This document shows positions 4,148-11,909 of a DNA stretch of 64,000 bases, piece by piece. Each line of letters begins with the position of its first letter. The first letter of the stretch is position 1. The DNA lies in the NCBI RefSeq assembly GCF_001708305.1, contig NZ_CP016953.1, positions 1,507,501 to 1,571,500 on the forward strand, given 5' to 3'. The notes beneath the pieces were generated by a model. That model was not told the DNA's origin. It ran no database searches and saw only the letters and a list, made by a program, of their open reading frames with translations. Position numbers and translations under genes: made by a program. Source of the DNA: Streptococcus himalayensis (GTDB lineage Bacteria; Bacillota; Bacilli; Lactobacillales; Streptococcaceae).

Positions 4148-4670
4148 CTTATTTTTAACCTTTGTAAAAATTGGCCTTTTGAGCATTGGAGGAGGTTATG
4201 CGTCACTCCCCTACATCCAAAGCCTGATAGTCGAGGGGAAGGGATGGCTAGATAGTACGACTTACGGAGATTTACTGACTATTTCGCAAATGACCCCAGG
4301 ACCTCTGGCTATCAATTCCGCTAGCTTTGTGGGAATGAAGGTAGCAGGACCAGTCGGTGCTGTCGTTGCGACGTTGGGCAATGTTCTCCCCTCTTTTGTC
4401 ATTGTCCTAATTTTTTCCATGATTTATTACCGCTATAAAAATTTAAACGGTGTACAGTTGGTTATGAAAGCCATTCGTCCAGTTGTGGTGGCTCTGATTG
4501 CCTCTGTGGCTTACAGCTTAGTGGTGATGTTGGGAGGAGATACCAGCTCTGTTTACCAGTTTATTTTACTGATTTTAGCCTTTGTAATTGTTCGCAGTAA
4601 GAAAATCAATACGATATGGGTCATCTTTGGAACAGGACTGGTCAATCTCCTCCTTGGTTTGCTACTGTAA
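4137..4670 (+). CDS. Chromate transporter family protein, C-half
   Basis: Second CHR-domain protein (177 residues), paralogous to its upstream partner. SIGGGYASLPYIQ and ISQMTPGPLAINSASF match the repeated CHR signatures, and about five membrane segments are visible. The ATG at 4137 lies inside the end of the preceding gene with TGGAGGA upstream, so translation is probably coupled and the pair forms one transporter. A clear hairpin terminator follows at 4679. Confidence 0.8.
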   Translation: MLLDLFLTFVKIGLLSIGGGYASLPYIQSLIVEGKGWLDSTTYGDLLTISQMTPGPLAINSASFVGMKVAGPVGAVVATLGNVLPSFVIVLIFSMIYYRYKNLNGVQLVMKAIRPVVVALIASVAYSLVVMLGGDTSSVYQFILLILAFVIVRSKKINTIWVIFGTGLVNLLLGLLL

Positions 4671-4678
4671 GAGAAAGG

Positions 4679-4710
4679 AACTTCATGCCAGATACATGAA
4701 GTTTTTTCTT
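4679..4710 (+). terminator. Rho-independent terminator after the chromate transporter genes
   Basis: Nine-base-pair stem (AACTTCATG, 4679-4687, with CATGAAGTT, 4695-4703), a seven-base loop and a T-rich tail. It closes the rexA-to-transporter operon. Confidence 0.85.
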
Positions 4711-4917
4711 GCCAAACAGTTCTCTATTAAGGACAGCAGAATATAGAGTATTGAACGACACAAGCCAAATAGAAATGAGTTGTGTAGGGATAAAAATTTT
4801 AATCCTTAAAATGATGTCGTAATATTTTTATCTGAGTATTAAAAAGATATTTCTTATAAAAAATATAAAAGTTCAATAAAATAGAGGTCAAAAAATGCCA
4901 AAATAGATAAAAAGTGC
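4711..4917. other. AT-rich intergenic region without a recognised gene
   Basis: Very AT-rich stretch between the terminator at 4679-4710 and the regulator promoter. I see no convincing ORF with a ribosome site and no RNA gene. Confidence 0.6.
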
Positions 4918-4923
4918 TATAAT
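4895..4923 (+). promoter_or_regulatory. Probable promoter of the PlcR/TprA-like regulator
   Basis: A perfect -10 box TATAAT (4918-4923) follows a weak -35 (ATGCCA, 4895-4900) at 17-base spacing. The regulator's ribosome site (AAAGGAG) and ATG at 4961 follow. Confidence 0.6.
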
Positions 4924-4960
4924 AGAACCGTTTTCAACAAGAAATTCAAAGGAGATAGAA

Positions 4961-5833
4961 ATGGTTCAAATGCTGGGAAGTCGGCTCAAAAATAAACGAA
5001 AAGAATTAGGCATGACTCAAAGTGAGCTGGCAGAAGGGATTTGTGAACAAAGTCAAATCAGCCGGATTGAAAAGACGGACTTTGCTCCAAGTTCGGATAT
5101 TCTTTACCTCCTGTCGAAAAAAATGGGAGTGACCATGGAGTATTTCTTTGATGAAAGTATGAAGGAAACCTCTTCTACCTTAGATCAGTTTAAAAAAGCG
5201 GTTGAAAAAGCTTTGAAAACTCGTGATTATGAATTAGTTGTTTATCTAGTAGAATTAGAGTCAGAAAGAGACCATCTACTATCCAAAGAAGACGAAGTTT
5301 ACCTAGAGTACCTCAAAGCAATTGTCTTATTTCATGTGAACGAATTAAAAATAGAGGCTATCGAGAAACTAGAAAATCTAATTTTAGATACGAAACCCCA
5401 ATATCCCTTTTATTTAGATTTTTTCAATGTATTAACCTTCTTTTACTTTGAAATGGATCGAATGAAAGAGTATAAAGAACTCTATCAATTTTTACTAAAA
5501 AATGTCAAGCAGCTTGATCTTTCTAGAATAGATCATTTTCATAAATATATCAAAATACGCTATAACTATGCTCGTTCTTTGGTGAATAGTCAACAAATGC
5601 AAGAAGCGATTAAGGAAATTACGGAAGTTATTGAACTTTGTAAGGAAGCCGATAGCAATTATTTACTGGCAGATTTATTATGCCAGTTAGCTAGGGCAGG
5701 AGAAAAATTTTTAAATCAAGCAGAAATATTAGAGTATTATCATCAGGCAGAAGCCCTCTATAAGATTTATGACAGCTATGTTTTACAGTTACAGTTGAAA
5801 CAATATTTAGCAGAAAATTTTGGCGAAAAATGA
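4961..5833 (+). CDS. PlcR/TprA-like (RRNPP) transcriptional regulator
   Basis: Protein of 290 residues. An N-terminal xre-type HTH (about residues 5-60; LGMTQSELAEGICEQSQISRIE) is joined to an all-helical region of about 220 residues rich in Tyr, Leu and Glu that looks like TPR repeats. This is the architecture of RRNPP regulators (PlcR, TprA, ComR, Rgg), which bind imported oligopeptides. The HTH resembles PlcR/TprA more than Rgg. The expected signal gene, a 44-codon exported peptide, starts 208 bases downstream on the same strand behind its own strong promoter. The gene ends with its own terminator. The regulated target is inferred to be the cassette at 6042-8386. Confidence 0.75.
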   Translation: MVQMLGSRLKNKRKELGMTQSELAEGICEQSQISRIEKTDFAPSSDILYLLSKKMGVTMEYFFDESMKETSSTLDQFKKAVEKALKTRDYELVVYLVELESERDHLLSKEDEVYLEYLKAIVLFHVNELKIEAIEKLENLILDTKPQYPFYLDFFNVLTFFYFEMDRMKEYKELYQFLLKNVKQLDLSRIDHFHKYIKIRYNYARSLVNSQQMQEAIKEITEVIELCKEADSNYLLADLLCQLARAGEKFLNQAEILEYYHQAEALYKIYDSYVLQLQLKQYLAENFGEK

Positions 5834-5860
5834 GATAATGGAGCTAGTTTTTCAAAGATT

Positions 5861-5911
5861 AAAAGCTTTAAAACCCTATTTTAAAAATGGATTGGTTTTA
5901 AGGCTTTTTTG
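5861..5911 (+). terminator. Terminator of the regulator gene
   Basis: Long AT-rich stem pairing AAAAGCTTTAAAACC (5861-5875) with GGTTTTAAGGC... (from 5894), including one G-U pair, followed by a T run. It separates the regulator transcript from the peptide cassette. Confidence 0.75.
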
Positions 5912-5940
5912 TTTCACTCAATACTGAAGAGAGAATAAAA

Positions 5941-6018
5941 ACCAAAATAACATTTTTTTTAAAAAATAACCAAAATAACATAAAATAAATTGACGGCGCT
6001 TTCCAAATATGTTATACT
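5941..6018 (+). promoter_or_regulatory. Strong promoter with repeated operator-like boxes upstream of the peptide gene
   Basis: Near-consensus promoter: TTGACG (5990-5995), 17-base spacer, TATACT (6013-6018). Upstream lies a 13-base direct repeat ACCAAAATAACAT at 5941-5953 and 5969-5981. ATAACATA (5975-5982) also forms an inverted repeat with TATGTTAT (6008-6015), which overlaps the -10 box. These boxes flank the RNA polymerase site and are candidate binding sites for the adjacent regulator. The match to a published PlcR box is not exact. Confidence 0.65.
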
Positions 6019-6041
6019 CTTTATATAAGGGGGTAAGGGCA

Positions 6042-6176
6042 ATGAAAAAAATGATAGTGTACTTCGCTTTACTAATTATTGGCTTTGGTCTAAATAATCA
6101 TAGAGGATATGAGAAAAAATCGTTTGATCCAGGTCACGCATGCTCTGTGGACATAAAAACGCTTAACAGTGGTTGA
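6042..6176 (+). CDS. Candidate RRNPP signal-peptide precursor (44 residues)
   Basis: Short ORF starting MKKMIVYFALLIIGFGLN: a lysine-containing N-terminus and a hydrophobic core typical of an export signal. A polar tail ending SVDIKTLNSG follows. A good ribosome site (AAGGGGG) and a near-consensus promoter precede it. Length, architecture and position directly downstream of a PlcR/TprA-like regulator match Phr/PapR-type propeptides, whose C-terminal 5-10 residues become the signal. No database identity is claimed. The single Cys in the tail (GHACSVD) is unusual and might instead indicate a modified peptide. Confidence 0.6.
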   Translation: MKKMIVYFALLIIGFGLNNHRGYEKKSFDPGHACSVDIKTLNSG

Positions 6177-6207
6177 TTATTATAAGTGTTAAGAAAGGAA
6201 AATAGGT

Positions 6208-6252
6208 ATGAGATATTCTTTACCAAGTCGGTACAAAAATGGAGATATTTGA
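6208..6252 (+). CDS. Very short ORF (14 codons), possible leader peptide
   Basis: ATG at 6208 with a modest upstream purine stretch (AAGGAAAATAGG) encodes MRYSLPSRYKNGDI. It lies between the signal-peptide candidate and the secreted peptide gene, directly before a perfect 8-bp hairpin (6253-6271). It may be chance or a translated leader acting on that hairpin. Confidence 0.2.
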   Translation: MRYSLPSRYKNGDI

Positions 6253-6271
6253 AATTATCCTATGGATAATT
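6253..6271 (+). promoter_or_regulatory. Hairpin / inverted repeat upstream of the secreted peptide gene
   Basis: AATTATCC and GGATAATT form a perfect eight-base inverted repeat with a TAT loop, about 40 bases before the 6311 start. There is no T run, so it is not a terminator. It could be an operator or an mRNA stability element. Confidence 0.4.
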
Positions 6272-6310
6272 ATTGAAAAGAATGTTTAAGATATAGATAA
6301 GGAGGCACAT

Positions 6311-6583
6311 ATGATTCAGAAAATTAAGAAAAACTCATTGTTATGTTCGATAGTATTAATTTTGATGGGATTGGGAGCAAAGAATATTGTGTCAGCTATT
6401 CAAGTAGCAGAAGTCCTTAATACTCGGTATGAAATTTATCTTGTAATGGGGAATACTCGGACTTCATATACCTATAGAACCATACAATTTAGAAGATATT
6501 ACACTTCCTATATAACAAGCGAGCGTCGCGACTATGGTATAAATCCAGGTGTTCTTTATACATATCACTATAATACATATTGA
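6311..6583 (+). CDS. Tyrosine-rich secreted peptide, bacteriocin-like candidate
   Basis: A 90-residue precursor with a clear Sec signal peptide (KIKK then a hydrophobic core, likely cleavage after VSA near residue 29). The mature chain of about 61 residues is full of Tyr, Thr and Arg and ends YTYHYNTY; the mature part has no Cys. A strong ribosome site (GGAGG) precedes it. Directly downstream are an ABC permease and ATPase, an order like that of lactococcin 972-type bacteriocins, but the Gly/Trp-rich signature of that family is not visible and the permease is too short. Function is therefore unassigned: bacteriocin, signalling protein or surface peptide are all possible. Confidence 0.6.
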   Translation: MIQKIKKNSLLCSIVLILMGLGAKNIVSAIQVAEVLNTRYEIYLVMGNTRTSYTYRTIQFRRYYTSYITSERRDYGINPGVLYTYHYNTY

Positions 6584-6594
6584 GAATGAAGTGG

Positions 6595-6635
6595 GGGCTA
6601 TAGATATAGCCTCTACCTTTGTTTTAGGTAGGGAG
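6595..6635 (+). promoter_or_regulatory. Tandem hairpins between peptide and transporter genes
   Basis: Two adjacent stem-loops. The first is formed by GGCTATA...TATAGCC. The second pairs CTACCT (6613-6618) with AGGTAG (6626-6631) around a TTGTTTT loop. They sit just after the secreted peptide stop and before the permease start. Their place suggests partial termination or processing that would make more peptide than transporter mRNA, as in many bacteriocin operons. Confidence 0.45.
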
Positions 6636-6643
6636 GGAAAATA

Positions 6644-7771
6644 ATGAAATTTTTTTGTTTTGAATTCAAACGATTTATAAATAATCCCAAGAATAAAATT
6701 TGCCTAGTTCTTCTTTTGTTACTTTTCATAGGATTATTTATTTTAAATCAAACAACGTTTCAAAAGGGCTTTTCAGCCTTATCTATAGAGACAAATCAAC
6801 TAAATCTTCAACAATCCAATCAGTCTGTGGACAATTTAAAAAAAGCAGTAGAATTGAATCCAAATGACAATCAATTAATTCAAGAATTGGAGAGGGCTCA
6901 AGAGGAACAAAAAATATTCTTAGAGCAATCAGAAACTTTAAAAAATGAGGATTATGCAGCTTTTACTAATCTACAATATCAACTAGATAGTTCACGACTA
7001 GAGCAAATATCTGAAAAAGATTCAGAAGAATATAAAAAGTTAAAAATAAATCTAAAATATTATGAATCTGTAAAAGGAGTAGCTGGCTCCCCTAGTCCAT
7101 ATATAAACAGTACGGATGAGTCTGCTTTTACTATAGGAAGTTCTATGATGGCCTGGTTATCATCAACTGTTATTTTTGTATTATTGACAGTTTTAGTCTC
7201 CGATTCAATAAGTGCTGAAATTGAAAGTTCTCAAATTAGATTTTATCATTTAATGGGTGCTAAGAATCCTAAAAATTTATTACTTAAATTATGTGTTCCA
7301 ATTGTAGTTACCTTTTCACTAACCATAATGATTTTCTTTTGTCTGTATATTATAAAAGGAATGATGAACAGTTTTGGGACTTTGGAGTATCCATATTTAA
7401 CGATTGATGGTGATATACTACCAATTTGGAAAGTGACGTTGTATACAATAGTGCTATATTTGGTATCTTTATTATTTATTGCCTCTTTGGGTCAATTTTT
7501 AGGTCTGGTATTCAAAAAAAGCTTAGTTGTCATTGGATTGATTGTAGTTTGTCTAACGAGTTTTATGACATTGTCGCAAGAAGAATGGTTTCGCCCTTTT
7601 AAAAAGTTTTTTCCCTTCGAATATCTAGGCTATGGTCAAGTAGTTAATGATAAACAAATTCTTCCTCAACATGCTGTTTTAATTGGCGTATGTTACCTAT
7701 TGATATTTAGTTTTTTGTTTATTGTAATTTCAAATCATCTGTATAAAAATTATTATTACAGGAAAGGATGA
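6644..7771 (+). CDS. ABC-2 type transporter permease
   Basis: Membrane protein of 375 residues. One N-terminal membrane helix (about 20-40) is followed by a polar, Gln/Glu-rich presumably extracellular segment (about 45-165), then five to six membrane helices to the C-terminus. This layout is that of ABC-2 permeases that export or resist peptides. The ATPase follows after 6 bases, so the two form one transporter. Codon use is AT-rich compared with the housekeeping genes. It probably exports, or protects against, the product of the peptide gene upstream. Confidence 0.75.
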   Translation: MKFFCFEFKRFINNPKNKICLVLLLLLFIGLFILNQTTFQKGFSALSIETNQLNLQQSNQSVDNLKKAVELNPNDNQLIQELERAQEEQKIFLEQSETLKNEDYAAFTNLQYQLDSSRLEQISEKDSEEYKKLKINLKYYESVKGVAGSPSPYINSTDESAFTIGSSMMAWLSSTVIFVLLTVLVSDSISAEIESSQIRFYHLMGAKNPKNLLLKLCVPIVVTFSLTIMIFFCLYIIKGMMNSFGTLEYPYLTIDGDILPIWKVTLYTIVLYLVSLLFIASLGQFLGLVFKKSLVVIGLIVVCLTSFMTLSQEEWFRPFKKFFPFEYLGYGQVVNDKQILPQHAVLIGVCYLLIFSFLFIVISNHLYKNYYYRKG

Positions 7772-7777
7772 AGAGCA

Positions 7778-8386
7778 ATGAAAGGAATAGATGTCAGAGA
7801 TATCACAATAGATATTTTCGAGAATTTAAGTTTTAGTATGCCGAGTACAGGATTATATGGGGTGATTGGACAGAATGGTGCTGGAAAGAGTACCCTTTTT
7901 AGTATGATGTCTGGTGAAATTAAGATTCCAAAAAAGAATATGAGAATTGGGAAAGTGTCCTATATTCCTAGTTTAAATATTTTTGATAAATATTTGACAG
8001 CCAATGACTATGTAAAGGTATTATCGTTAAATGAACAGAAGCGATTTCATAAAAATCTTAAGCAAATGGGTGGAGCAACTTTCTTTGGCAAAAAAATAGG
8101 AAAATATTCTTTAGGAATGGGAGAATTATTTTGTTTTATCTATGCTCTATCCATAGAAAGCGATGTGCTGATTTTAGACGAATTGCTAGATGGTTTGGAT
8201 GAACAGAGGAGATTTGCAGCCTACGAATTATTGAAACATTATAAGAAAGAAAAATTGATTTTATTGACCTCTCATAATTTATCAGAAGTATTTAAAGTAA
8301 GTGATGATGTTTACTTTTTGGAGGAAGGGAAATTGGTCATCGTAGATGGGCTAGAAACTGCCCAGAATAAAATATTATCTACATAA
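7778..8386 (+). CDS. ABC transporter ATP-binding protein
   Basis: ATPase subunit of 202 residues. Walker A is GQNGAGKST, Walker B and D-loop are VLILDELLDGLDE and the H-loop is LLTSHNL. The signature motif is degenerate (SLGMG in place of LSGGQ), which is seen in bacteriocin-associated ATPases. It lies immediately after its permease in the peptide cassette. Confidence 0.85.
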   Translation: MKGIDVRDITIDIFENLSFSMPSTGLYGVIGQNGAGKSTLFSMMSGEIKIPKKNMRIGKVSYIPSLNIFDKYLTANDYVKVLSLNEQKRFHKNLKQMGGATFFGKKIGKYSLGMGELFCFIYALSIESDVLILDELLDGLDEQRRFAAYELLKHYKKEKLILLTSHNLSEVFKVSDDVYFLEEGKLVIVDGLETAQNKILST

Positions 8387-8419
8387 GACTATCATTATTA
8401 ATTCAGATAAAAACAATAA

Positions 8420-8533
8420 TTAACGATGTTTCCTAAGAATATTATATTTTTTGCATAGGGAGTGAGAGCAATGAAAAGAATAATATCTCTCGTATGTTTA
8501 TCACTCTCTATTGTCTATTGGTTGAAACCGTAA
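8420..8533 (+). pseudogene. Second peptide gene start with duplicated promoter and leader, prematurely ended
   Basis: TTAACG (8420-8425), 17 bases, TATATT (8443-8448), then a GGGAG site and ATG at 8471. Bases 8416-8490 align almost base for base with the promoter, leader and start of the 6042 gene. The ORF (MKRIISLVCLSLSIVYWLKP) stops after 20 codons. A +1-shifted frame stays open from before this point to 8671, so a longer exported peptide seems to have been broken by a frameshift. Confidence 0.5.
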
Positions 8534-8671
8534 GGGATTCAAACGACAGTATAATCTTAAACTCAGACAAGGGTATTTTGTGGGTCCAGTATAAAAGGGA
8601 TGAGAAGGATATCCCAAAAGGGGAAGTATTTTCAAACGAGAATTCAGTCATGCGATTTCACTCATTTTAAC
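8494..8671 (+). pseudogene. Downstream frame of the broken peptide gene
   Basis: Open frame (in-frame ATG 8494, stop at 8669-8671) encoding a polar tail such as RDSNDSIILNSDKGILWVQ and ending VMRFHSF. It lacks its own ribosome site and overlaps the signal-like ORF at 8471 in another frame. Together they look like one small secreted protein with a frameshift. It could instead be a true short gene. Confidence 0.35.
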
Positions 8672-8691
8672 GCCGAATAGGAGGAAACTTT

Positions 8692-9633
8692 ATGAAAAAA
8701 TCAATGTACTCTATTTTTCCTTTATTACTTTGTTCGATTCTGATTTCAGGGTGTGGGGAGCGGTCTAATTCTTCTGTCAGTCAAAGTGCGAAACAACAAG
8801 CTTCCGTCTCTACTGTGCATGTAGAGACGGAAGCAAAGTCTTCTGCAAAAGTTCAGTCAACTTCATCCTCATCCGAAACTTCTGGTGTTCAAGATAAGGC
8901 TCGAATTTCTAATAGTGATACAATTGCTAGTTCCGCAAAAGCTCCTTCCCTAGTTGATCTTCGAGAATTGGCTGATCTGAAGGCTGGCTTAGAGGATCCG
9001 AAAGTATTAGCTGGTTTAAATGCAGGAGTTGATTTATCAACCCCAACTACAAGTGAAGCCAGCAATCCAGCATCTGGTCAAAAGCATGTGCTGACTGTAA
9101 AAGGGCAAATTCAACAGGTATGGAATTATTGTGCCCCAACAACTGTTAGCATGATGTTAGCTTCCCGCGGGATAGAAGCCAATCAGTTCCAATTAGCAAA
9201 AGAAATGGGGACGTATGATCCTTTTGGCACGCATAATAAGGATGCCATCCGTATTTTAAATAAATATTTATTTGGTTATGAATATCCGAGTGCCCAGCAA
9301 CCAGGTTATCGCCTAGAAACTGTTCGGAATGCCAGCAGCCAATCAGAAGATATGAAAAAATTTAAGCAGCGGCTTATTCAGAATATCAAAGATGGCTACC
9401 CTATGTATTATACATTTGATGTTTCTAAAGTAAATCCTGGAAAATCAGGAGAGCACAATGTGATTGGGATTGGCTATCTAGAAACACCCGATGGTAAAGA
9501 TATTGAATTGCTATACTATTTGGACCCATCTCCGATTGTCCAAGATCCAGTCTATGGCGGTCTGAAAACCATTACGCCGGAGGAATTATTGGCAGCGATG
9601 TTGACCTGCGAAGAACCCAATTATGCTTGGTAA
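8692..9633 (+). CDS. Lipoprotein with C39-like peptidase domain
   Basis: Protein of 313 residues with a lipoprotein signal (lipobox ISGC, Cys21) and a long Ser/Ala/Thr/Gln linker to about residue 120. The C39_2-like domain that follows has the catalytic cysteine in NYCAPTTVSMML, histidine in GEHNVIGIGY and aspartate in YLDPSP. Such proteins are predicted cell-surface cysteine peptidases. Here the position just after a peptide-export cassette makes processing, degradation or immunity towards a secreted peptide plausible, but this is inference. A strong ribosome site (GGAGG) precedes it and a terminator follows. Confidence 0.75.
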   Translation: MKKSMYSIFPLLLCSILISGCGERSNSSVSQSAKQQASVSTVHVETEAKSSAKVQSTSSSSETSGVQDKARISNSDTIASSAKAPSLVDLRELADLKAGLEDPKVLAGLNAGVDLSTPTTSEASNPASGQKHVLTVKGQIQQVWNYCAPTTVSMMLASRGIEANQFQLAKEMGTYDPFGTHNKDAIRILNKYLFGYEYPSAQQPGYRLETVRNASSQSEDMKKFKQRLIQNIKDGYPMYYTFDVSKVNPGKSGEHNVIGIGYLETPDGKDIELLYYLDPSPIVQDPVYGGLKTITPEELLAAMLTCEEPNYAW

Positions 9634-9696
9634 TCCATGTTTGGGAAATTTATTTCTCAAACATTCCCAGATTATAAAGATGGAATATTCAATGTG

Positions 9697-9751
9697 AAGT
9701 TCCCTCAAAAATTAGATTGTGTGTCTAAGTTTTGAGGGAACTTTCGTTTTT
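9697..9751 (+). terminator. Terminator after the C39-like lipoprotein
   Basis: Fourteen-base perfect stem, AAGTTCCCTCAAAA (9697-9710) with TTTTGAGGGAACTT (9730-9743), then a T-rich tail. Confidence 0.9.
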
Positions 9752-9833
9752 GATTGAGAAGTTTATTTTATCCACTTGCCCTCTATAGTTCAGAGAGAAG
9801 CATTAAAAAATCAAAAGATTAATATATAAATAT

Positions 9834-9862
9834 TTGACAATTTTTTATAGGTTTGATAGAAT
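9834..9862 (+). promoter_or_regulatory. Promoter of the three-gene ABC transporter operon
   Basis: TTGACA (9834-9839), 17-base spacer, TAGAAT (9857-9862). It is followed by AGGAGG and the ATG at 9889. Confidence 0.85.
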
Positions 9863-9888
9863 GAACGTAAAAAATAGGAGGTTCACAG

Positions 9889-10683
9889 ATGAGAATTCGT
9901 TTGAGATTGTTTCCGTTTCGTTCTTTAATCCTACTTATTCCTTTGCTGCTACTAGTCCTCATTTATAAGGATGCCATTCTCGATTGGTTTATATTTGATG
10001 TGAATGCTCCCGATTTGGCGGGGATGGATGCTCAGGCTCTAAAAATTCATATCTTCAAAAATTTACTTTTTTTGGACAACACTCTATTTTTCTACAATTT
10101 TTATCAATCCTTTATGTTTCCGATGATAGCGGTCGTGATGGCGTATGAATATCGCTATATCAATGAACGCTATCTTCGTTATAGAATTGGCAGGACGAAA
10201 GATTATGAAATAGCTCGGCGTTCTCTCAAGTTTCAACTAACGGCTTATCAAGTGGGGATTTTTCTCAGTGTTTTGTCTTGCTTGCTGCTTGTCGCTTTCT
10301 TTTGGGGCAGAGTCGCCATGGAAGGTTTACCTAACTATTTTGCCCAAAATTCTGTTCTGCGACTCTTTGGCGAGCATACATGGCTTTATCTCATCTTTTA
10401 TAGTGTTGTGAAAGTGGTGGCCATTATGATGAATAGTTGGCTTGTATTTGCCATGGTGGATTATTTTAATCATTTTATCAAAGCAAGTTTGTTCTATCTT
10501 ATCTTTATATGGGCTCTGTGTCCGTTATTGTACGCTTTTTTACCCTTTTATCTCGTTCCCATGTCAAGCTACATGATAACGTCCTACGGAGGAATCAATT
10601 TGCCCATTGTATTCCTACCCTATACATTGTTTATCTGTCTAATAATGTTTATGAAAGTTACCAAAAAATATGAAGTTTTATAG
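9889..10683 (+). CDS. ABC transporter membrane subunit (first of two)
   Basis: Hydrophobic protein of 264 residues with about six membrane segments and no recognised motif. The cytoplasmic segment after the second helix (YEYRYINERYLRYRIGRTKDYEI) resembles the coupling region of ABC-2 permeases in lantibiotic immunity-type transporters. It overlaps the next gene by 14 bases. With the following permease and ATPase it forms a complete exporter with two different membrane subunits. The substrate is unknown; neighbouring peptide genes suggest a peptide. Confidence 0.6.
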   Translation: MRIRLRLFPFRSLILLIPLLLLVLIYKDAILDWFIFDVNAPDLAGMDAQALKIHIFKNLLFLDNTLFFYNFYQSFMFPMIAVVMAYEYRYINERYLRYRIGRTKDYEIARRSLKFQLTAYQVGIFLSVLSCLLLVAFFWGRVAMEGLPNYFAQNSVLRLFGEHTWLYLIFYSVVKVVAIMMNSWLVFAMVDYFNHFIKASLFYLIFIWALCPLLYAFLPFYLVPMSSYMITSYGGINLPIVFLPYTLFICLIMFMKVTKKYEVL

Positions 10684-11311
10684 AGGATTGCCTTTTATCG
10701 TGAAAAGCCTTTTTAGTGCCTTCTTTATTTACACGATATTTACAAAATTTAATGTTTACGGGTATCGGGATTTGGTATTGCTCATAAGGGAACAACTCTT
10801 AAATCCATTTTTGAAAGCAGAAGGAGAGCAGCTGAGTTTTATCAAGGTGATTAGTTTGTTGGGACTATATTTTAATAACTTTTACTATTTAATTTCGATG
10901 GTATCGGATTTGAGCAGTGGAGCAAAAGAAATCATTTGCTACCATTCGGAAAGTCAAATGGGATTTGATTTAAAAGTACTTAAATTGCTTAGTTATACTT
11001 ATTTTCTTGAGTACGCTACACTGATATTGAGCTTGTTTGGCATTTCTTGGCTCTTATTTCATCAGCTAGATTTGTCACCATCTGTTCTAGCTCTCTTGTT
11101 TTCTTGGTTCTTAGTTGACGGAGTTTTTGCTTGTTTAACAGCCTTGATAAGCTCGTCTTCAGTTCTATCCTTGCTTTTATTTTTTATGCTAAATTTAGTC
11201 AGGTATTTCTTATTACCTTATCCCTACATCCCAGTAGTAGTAATGTGCCTGATTTTCTATATACATTCCAGGAAGGAGATGCTTGATGTTAAAAATTCAA
11301 AACGGTTGTAA
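10670..11311 (+). CDS. ABC transporter membrane subunit (second of two)
   Basis: Membrane protein of 213 residues with about five to six hydrophobic helices and a short cytoplasmic part rich in Lys and Ser. The start ATG at 10670 lies inside the end of the preceding gene, and its own end overlaps the ATPase gene. This tight coupling indicates a single operon. It is not recognisable beyond an ABC permease by context. Confidence 0.55.
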   Translation: MKFYRGLPFIVKSLFSAFFIYTIFTKFNVYGYRDLVLLIREQLLNPFLKAEGEQLSFIKVISLLGLYFNNFYYLISMVSDLSSGAKEIICYHSESQMGFDLKVLKLLSYTYFLEYATLILSLFGISWLLFHQLDLSPSVLALLFSWFLVDGVFACLTALISSSSVLSLLLFFMLNLVRYFLLPYPYIPVVVMCLIFYIHSRKEMLDVKNSKRL

Positions 11312-11909
11312 GCGTTATAAAGGACAAGAAGTTTTAAAAGATATTAATTTAGAATTTCTTGATGGGCATATTTATGGTCTAGTTGGGATCAATGGCTCGG
11401 GGAAAACCCTTATTTTAAAAGCCTTGGCAGGCTACATCACATTAGATCGAGGTTTTGTTCAGCAAGATCATATCAAGATTCGAAGTCGTCGCAATTACAT
11501 AGAAAATGCGGGTATTTTGATTGAAAATCCCCAATTTATCTCCCATCTAAGTTTGTTGGAAAACTTAGAATTGATTGCCTCCATCAGCCAGAATCGAAAA
11601 AAGATTGATCTGGATAGGTGGATTCAGCTTTATCAATTAGAAAAATTTAAACATACCCTTTTTAAACATCTTTCCTTGGGAACGAAGAAAAAGATGGCTT
11701 TAATTCAAGCCTTCCTCCACAATCCTGCTATTTTACTTTTGGATGAACCTATGAATGCCTTGGATGATGCAAGCGTGCGTGTCACAAAAGAGCTGCTTAT
11801 GGAGTACAAACAGGACAGGTTAGTGATTTTAACCTCTCACATCGCCCAAGACATTGAAGACCTTTGTGATACGGTCTATACGGTTTCTGATGGGCAAATT
11901 GTCTGTTGA
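11286..11909 (+). CDS. ABC transporter ATP-binding protein
   Basis: ATPase of 207 residues with Walker A GINGSGKT, signature LSLGTKKKMA, Walker B AILLLDEPMNALDD and H-loop LTSHIAQD. The ATG at 11286 is preferred over the TTG one codon earlier because GGAAGGAG lies seven bases before it. It forms the last gene of the operon driven from 9834. Its closest relation by motif is the short ATPases of bacteriocin or immunity exporters. Confidence 0.85.
   Translation: MLKIQNGCKRYKGQEVLKDINLEFLDGHIYGLVGINGSGKTLILKALAGYITLDRGFVQQDHIKIRSRRNYIENAGILIENPQFISHLSLLENLELIASISQNRKKIDLDRWIQLYQLEKFKHTLFKHLSLGTKKKMALIQAFLHNPAILLLDEPMNALDDASVRVTKELLMEYKQDRLVILTSHIAQDIEDLCDTVYTVSDGQIVC

Follow-up and report, generated by a model that had tools for sequence, protein, structure and literature searches.

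Streptococcus himalayensis carries a small locus in which a peptide-pheromone regulator of a known kind precedes secreted-peptide cargo that is undescribed. We examined it in a window of 64,000 nucleotides (positions 1,507,501 to 1,571,500 of contig NZ_CP016953.1, RefSeq assembly GCF_001708305.1; the genome is one contig of 2,275,471 bases), where five plus-strand genes, referred to in order as REG, PEP1, TYR, PERM, and ATP, occupy positions 4961-8386. We lean modestly toward a reading in which these genes form an operon under quorum-sensing control, with a bacteriocin-like peptide exported by Sec and two-gene ABC (ATP-binding cassette) protection, lactococcin-972-like in its working, a likeness that stops short of shown family membership. 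Gene content, conservation, the regulator–pheromone pairing, and the co-occurrence of the peptide with the ABC pair were established by computation; the activities are inferred.

Downstream of the five genes, on the same strand, lie a disrupted peptide gene and a gene for a C39-like lipoprotein. Every feature named in a first-pass annotation, made from the sequence alone, was thus present (regulator, 44-residue peptide, TYR, ABC pair, broken peptide gene, and lipoprotein), and the five genes and the lipoprotein gene are all intact open reading frames (ORFs) in the window. That annotation had read the set as a self-contained quorum-sensing unit controlling a bacteriocin-like product. The class of regulator, the kind of peptide, and the ABC pair speak for its reading; the self-containment, in which the lipoprotein was included, does not hold up well. 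Comparisons within the genus used 284 Streptococcus genomes (labels beginning with G), and loci fetched from genomes carry labels beginning with L.

Regulator and candidate pheromone

REG (4961..5833; 290 aa) had been proposed to be PlcR/TprA-like, subject to a profile search, and that search placed it in the PlcR/TprA class of RRNPP transcriptional regulators. In Pfam the protein matched HTH_3 (45.4 bits; cut-off 23) and RNPP_C (32.1 bits; cut-off 26.5), and its residues 3-275 matched PlcR of known structure (PDB 2qfc; E 2.8e-16). The N-terminal helix-turn-helix and the C-terminal RNPP/TPR domain of RRNPP proteins are therefore both found in REG, as is a neighbouring exported-propeptide gene: PEP1 starts 209 nt past REG, and a similar arrangement was seen in 12 of 30 homologous loci. 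The likeness to PlcR of Bacillus cereus extends over nearly the whole regulator. In the PlcR/PapR system the pheromone gene also lies downstream of the regulator, as here, while the pheromone sequence and the targets differ.

REG homologues (E <= 1e-25) occurred in 99 of the 284 genomes. In a tree of 33 regulators, REG grouped with the G083, G251-type, and lactococcin-972-type groups (94/90, just under the program's star), and the PhrA-type group was separate from REG's group (100/100). REG and G083 have long branches in this tree, and DPG peptides fall on either side of its midpoint root.

PEP1 (6042..6176) encodes a 44-aa exported propeptide with an FDPG motif. Peptides of this type were sought at the best 30 REG loci, the window among them, with a filter for ORFs that span 28-60 codons, are hydrophobic at the N-terminus, carry [FWVIYL][DE]P[GD] near the end, and lie <=900 nt downstream of the regulator. 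Twelve loci, including the window, passed, ten with DPG and two with WEPD. As a control, 270 ORFs of 180 codons or more, taken from the window and 28 loci, were treated in the same way; six were positive, all six of them REG homologues. PEP1 also shares the hydrophobic N-terminus and the DPG near the C-terminus with published PapR/TprA-like pheromones. A 2025 catalogue of such systems in S. thermophilus lists putative pheromones with the endings IDPGPANIMVK and IDPGPAHSMVS; LC-MS (liquid chromatography–mass spectrometry) of a supernatant revealed a C-terminal fragment of the former (PMC12445099). Given the DPG-type peptides beside related regulators and the published peptides of the same type, PEP1 is probably the REG pheromone and of a known kind, in keeping with its first description as an exported peptide of the signalling type. 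We hold with high confidence that REG and PEP1 are a pair.

Two observations weigh against this assignment. At 18 of the 30 REG loci no DPG-type peptide was found by the filter used; two of these 18 have divergently encoded PhrA-type peptides (NLDVGKAD and VDLGLAD), and at the remaining 16 neither a DPG-type nor a PhrA-type peptide was found. In addition, PEP1 runs on for 13 residues beyond DPG, as compared to 6-7 in the DPG relatives examined. Because of this longer tail, the earlier guess that the pheromone consists of the last 5-12 residues of PEP1 is uncertain.

The nearest published counterparts, from S. thermophilus and S. salivarius, are PapR/TprA-like systems in which a regulator of the PlcR/TprA class is likewise accompanied by a neighbouring short exported peptide, theirs with an IDPGPA-type C-terminus (PMC12445099). 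They differ in that seven residues follow DPG, and PEP1 lacks the proline after DPG; no TYR-type cargo is mentioned in the parts of that paper covered. TprA/PhrA and TprA2/PhrA2 of S. pneumoniae (PMC6753895, PMC5436883, PMC6120550, PMC13361665) also combine a PlcR-class regulator and a peptide pheromone with switchable bacteriocin-type clusters alongside. In contrast to PEP1, however, their pheromones have LDVGKAD or VDLGLAD as the C-terminal residues and are divergently encoded, and their cargo is lantibiotic or streptococcin rather than TYR.

A second PlcR/TprA-like regulator locus was observed in the same genome (L070 4381-10075; C1:648940 region). It has its own DPG peptide, ending EIDPGPANIHMN, and after regulator and peptide come ThiF-family and arginase-family genes, which may make it a modified-peptide cluster.

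The secreted tyrosine-rich peptide

TYR (6311..6583) encodes a secreted tyrosine-rich peptide of 90 aa. The first-pass annotation could not assign it to a bacteriocin family, and we found no family match in Pfam, NCBIfam, or PHROGs, which returned only weak rows at chance level. A search of the 284 Streptococcus genomes recovered homologues in 10. An apparent eleventh, G237 (E 0.0098), was rejected because the match falls within a REG homologue and is due to chance. In a 395-genome sample of the order, TYR was found in its own genome only. Among 5.8 billion proteins, a single-sequence search gave 2 matches and a profile search 25 clusters; the cluster names shown are streptococci, Pseudolactococcus, and a Streptococcaceae metagenome-assembled genome, most rows being unnamed. 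No publication on a TYR-type peptide was found, judging by titles and the beginnings of abstracts.

The N-terminus of family members is basic and hydrophobic. They also share a VSA-type site, and motifs surrounding TRYE, GINP, and the tyrosines at the C-terminus are conserved; the signal sequence and the VSA site were read by eye. If cut after VSA, mature TYR would have 61 residues, 12 of them tyrosine and none cysteine, with a pI of 9.3. Comparison of the G018 and G193 copies (dN 0.072, dS 0.322) indicates purifying selection; against the window copy dS was saturated or not computable. AlphaFold2 with 23 sequences predicted a helix at residues 2-24, corresponding to the signal, and strands at 31-43, 49-60, 64-72, and 80-89 (pLDDT 82.7, pTM 0.58); with 10 sequences the pLDDT was just 45.

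We regard an antibacterial role for TYR as reasonably likely. TYR matched no bacteriocin family, and its predicted structure gave no clear match to solved structures in Foldseek or VIA-align; both points count against such a role.

Three closer identifications were considered and set aside. TYR as a lactococcin 972 was rejected on the lack of any match to PF09683 (E up to 1) and on an hhalign probability of 0.6% against two lactococcin-972-like peptides, a test that rested on those two template sequences only. The mature peptide of lactococcin 972 has a beta-sandwich fold. Four strands are predicted for TYR, and lactococcin 972 is absent from the Foldseek and VIA-align matches listed, an absence that excludes nothing. 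Kinship with the 91-aa peptide of the L065-type loci described below was likewise rejected (hhalign probability 1.7%), as was a double-glycine bacteriocin with a C39-domain exporter: by eye, the cleavage site of TYR is of the VSA type, and PERM and ATP lack a C39 domain, which is carried instead by the separate lipoprotein.

The ABC pair

PERM (6644..7771; 375 aa) is an ABC-2 type permease (ABC2_membrane_3, 35.4 bits; cut-off 31.6) and ATP (7778..8386; 202 aa) an ABC ATPase (ABC_tran, 52.8 bits; cut-off 25). The pair had been called a dedicated ABC transporter, a description that fits its distribution: TYR is accompanied by PERM and ATP in all 10 TYR genomes, and in all 10 the three genes are contiguous, TYR and PERM being disrupted in G198. 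When PERM was searched alone, it was found in 11 of the 284 genomes, the 10 TYR genomes and G085. At the G085 locus (L111 5803-7546), PERM-ATP stands beside a gene that we take by eye to be tpiA-like, and no TYR was found.

Published lactococcin-972-type loci provide the closest comparison. Of 571 pneumococcal genomes, 157 carry only scbBC of the scb locus, which is lactococcin-972-like (PMC11796350), and orf2-orf3 of lactococcin 972 have been described both as immunity genes and as a putative ABC transporter (PMC4055356). What these loci share with the one examined here (PMC11796350, PMC4055356, PMC6120550) is a Sec-type precursor of about 90 residues that has no double-glycine leader, with genes for a membrane protein and an ATPase behind it; orphan transporters are a further shared trait (PMC11796350; here G085). 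The difference lies in the families: TYR lacks PF09683, PERM is of the ABC2_membrane_3 type and gave no match to DUF1430 at E up to 1, and hhalign with the two lactococcin-972-like peptides fails. Since G085 keeps the pair without TYR, as orphan scbBC genes are kept in pneumococci, immunity rather than export is the likelier function of PERM-ATP, and we consider it a fairly probable one.

These data also bear on an alternative in which REG-PEP1 controls the operon and TYR is a surface, signalling, or host-interaction peptide that PERM-ATP handles or exports. Such a role would sit well with the lack of a bacteriocin family match, and a beta-structured, tyrosine-rich peptide, as the predicted fold suggests, could bind carbohydrate or membrane. 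However, PERM-ATP without TYR in G085 is easier to understand as immunity than as export, TYR appears by eye to have its own Sec-type signal sequence, and lactococcin-972-type peptides are fronted by regulators related to REG. We therefore judge this alternative unlikely, though it is the most serious of those considered, and retain the bacteriocin-like reading.

A predicted hairpin lies between TYR and PERM (6591..6616, plus strand; -18.2 kcal/mol, z -2.8). Relatives G018, G193, and G198 have one as well (z -5.4, -7.1, and -8.0, respectively), and none was found in G209 (z 0.1), G078 (z 1.7), or G012 (z -1.6). The hairpin was thus found in four of the seven loci scored, of 10 in all (in this region the G075 sequence equals that of G018 and the G183 sequence that of G078; G051 was folded without a score), and this lack of universality weighs against the favoured reading. 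Across four sequences and 14 pairs there were one double-sided change, three one-sided changes, and two pairs broken in one sequence. An attenuator is a possible interpretation.

Probable control of the operon and genomic contexts

The first gene of the presumed operon is preceded by a promoter-like site, TTGACG-17-TATACT with TG ahead of the -10 (5990..6018, plus strand), which agrees with the consensus at 10 of 12 positions. A scan of positions 4600-10200 gave 37 promoter-like sites as compared to a shuffle mean of 25.3, so that a single match proves little. Directly upstream of the -35, on the same strand, are two exact copies of ACCAAAATAACAT (5941-5953 and 5969-5981) spaced 28 nt apart, and exact copies occur nowhere else in the genome. 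Tolerating one mismatch gave nine genome sites in total versus 15 for a reversed control pattern, and weight is therefore given to the exact pair only. G083, the nearest relative, has by eye a similar doubled AT-rich element. The direct repeat is a candidate REG binding site.

A diverged copy of this promoter recurs downstream of ATP (8420..8448, plus strand; 9/12 in the scan). Promoter and start there share 50 of 69 nt (72%) with the promoter and start of PEP1, and they precede the remnant of a second pheromone-type gene (8471..8533, plus strand), in which the ATG at 8471 is followed by an in-frame stop after 20 codons. This agrees with the earlier description of a second, broken peptide gene. 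Its start resembles PEP1 and the L065-type peptide; the reading frame was not mended.

Beyond the window, TYR was found in two main settings. In G018, G075, G193, and G198 it is found between a gapA-like and a fusA-like gene; in G183, G078, and G012 it is oriented divergently to an Rgg-like regulator, with cinA- and recA-like genes nearby (these names were given by eye and are our presumption). G183 and G078 are near-copies, leaving about two independent cases of the Rgg context. In G051 an Rgg-like regulator is several kb upstream and a C39-like lipoprotein gene stands immediately before TYR. Three of the Rgg-like proteins were scanned and scored 25.5, 30.7, and 32.3 bits for RGG_Cterm, below the cut-off of 36.9. 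In G183, G078, and G012 a short hydrophobic peptide of 32-33 residues with a C-terminal tryptophan region is encoded between regulator and TYR, on TYR's strand. These three loci resemble Rgg/SHP-type systems in having an Rgg-like regulator and a short hydrophobic peptide beside TYR-PERM-ATP; they differ in the RGG_Cterm scores just given, and the regulator of the window is of the PlcR class. In pneumococcus, clusters next to conserved TprA and Rgg regulators have been reported to switch (PMC6120550). The hydrophobic peptides themselves (L020 8826-8927, L019 12001-12102, and L021 9284-9382) end GIFPWKL or DPWLDLWSWG.

Relatives of REG, in turn, front other kinds of cargo. Lactococcin-972-type peptides were found at L061 (40.1 bits) and, below the cut-off of 22, at L055 (14.0 bits only), and DUF1430 proteins at L056 (76.0 bits) and, below the cut-off of 28.2, at L055 (23.2 bits). 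At L056-L060 the gene immediately after the REG relative (45-46%) encodes a large DUF1430-type membrane protein, and the filter used detected no pheromone there. Another set of loci with DPG-peptide regulators (L065 3239-5986, together with L042, L043, L044, and L052) has a divergent 91-aa secreted peptide and a 409-aa permease, and an ATPase is present in L065; these loci may be a sister cargo type. Their permease looks related to PERM (hhalign 92.6% over 135 columns, with two template sequences).

With these contexts in hand, control of the TYR operon by REG-PEP1 appears quite probable. It could be argued instead that the pair controls only itself or genes elsewhere and that TYR-PERM-ATP is a neighbour with its own control. 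No regulator was seen adjoining TYR in G018, G075, G193, G198, or G209 (upstream of TYR, the last is partly masked), which counts in favour of such separate control; furthermore, PEP1 and TYR are separated by 135 nt, with a weak promoter-like match at 6286 (9/12). On the other hand, the scan reported no terminator-like site between PEP1 and TYR, the exact ACCAAAATAACAT boxes are restricted to this promoter, and the cargo of relatives lies directly behind or beside the regulator–pheromone pair. Separate control is accordingly improbable in our judgement.

The base composition introduces a further consideration. From REG to the second peptide remnant the GC content is 29-35%, as compared to 43-46% in the housekeeping flanks, which suggests acquired DNA; the lipoprotein gene has 41%, and further ABC genes at 9889-11909 are likewise low (34-37%). 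Decay of the module was observed elsewhere: TYR and PERM are disrupted in G198 (L023 8799-10133), and the start region of TYR is out of frame in G209 (L015 upstream of 8938). Low GC, decayed relatives, and the disrupted second peptide gene would all be expected of an acquired remnant that is in decay and has little function left. All five genes and the lipoprotein gene are open in the window, however, and TYR is under purifying selection across species; we consider such a remnant the least probable of the explanations weighed, and a functional quorum-sensed operon remains our preferred reading.

Genes downstream

The C39-like lipoprotein (8692..9633, plus strand; 313 aa; Peptidase_C39_2 57.7 bits, cut-off 24) has an ISGC lipobox and residues Cys147, His255, and Asp278, which we presume to be catalytic. 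Its membership of the unit is doubtful. It occurs in 48 of the 284 genomes, and among 20 lipoprotein loci examined (of 52 listed places) it adjoins the TYR module in two, the window and G051, which are also the only two of the 10 TYR loci to have it; it was therefore rejected as a member. As the gene order differs between the window and G051, a link to the TYR module is possible only.

Beyond it, the further ABC system at 9889-11909 comprises membrane proteins of 264 aa and 213 aa without a family match, plus an ATPase whose best NCBIfam row was galliderm_ABC (130.7 bits, below the cut-off of 309.75). A promoter-like TTGACA-17-TAGAAT lies ahead of this system at 9834.

Proposed mechanism and significance

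The favoured order of events would be as follows: after export, PEP1 is trimmed to a pheromone from its C-terminal part that includes DPG or lies beyond it. An oligopeptide permease would then re-import it (the genome has seven matches to the oligopeptide-binding family PF00496) and, as the regulator family suggests, the pheromone would bind the TPR domain of REG. REG would activate the promoter at 5990, probably via the repeated boxes, amplifying PEP1 and expressing TYR-PERM-ATP, and the hairpin after TYR may, from its position, lower the transporter genes relative to the peptide. TYR would leave via Sec and be cut after VSA, giving a cationic, cysteine-free, tyrosine-rich, beta-structured peptide of about 61 residues. 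Once released, it would most likely inhibit related bacteria, and PERM-ATP would most likely protect the producer.

On a wider view, we give about an even chance to the proposal that TYR founds a new family of Streptococcaceae bacteriocins that are Sec-secreted, unmodified, tyrosine-rich, and beta-structured and come with a two-gene ABC immunity system of their own, cargo that different lineages have placed under PlcR/TprA-type regulators with a DPG peptide or Rgg-like regulators with a tryptophan-containing peptide. The regulatory half of the locus ties a pheromone type lately catalogued in S. thermophilus to antimicrobial-type cargo in other streptococci, and REG/PEP1-type loci supply testable pheromone–receptor pairs. 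The cargo half adds a secreted peptide family for which Pfam, NCBIfam, and PHROGs contain no model. If TYR does not kill, it would be an unexplained quorum-controlled secreted peptide; if it does, it would represent a new unmodified bacteriocin scaffold together with a two-gene protection system.

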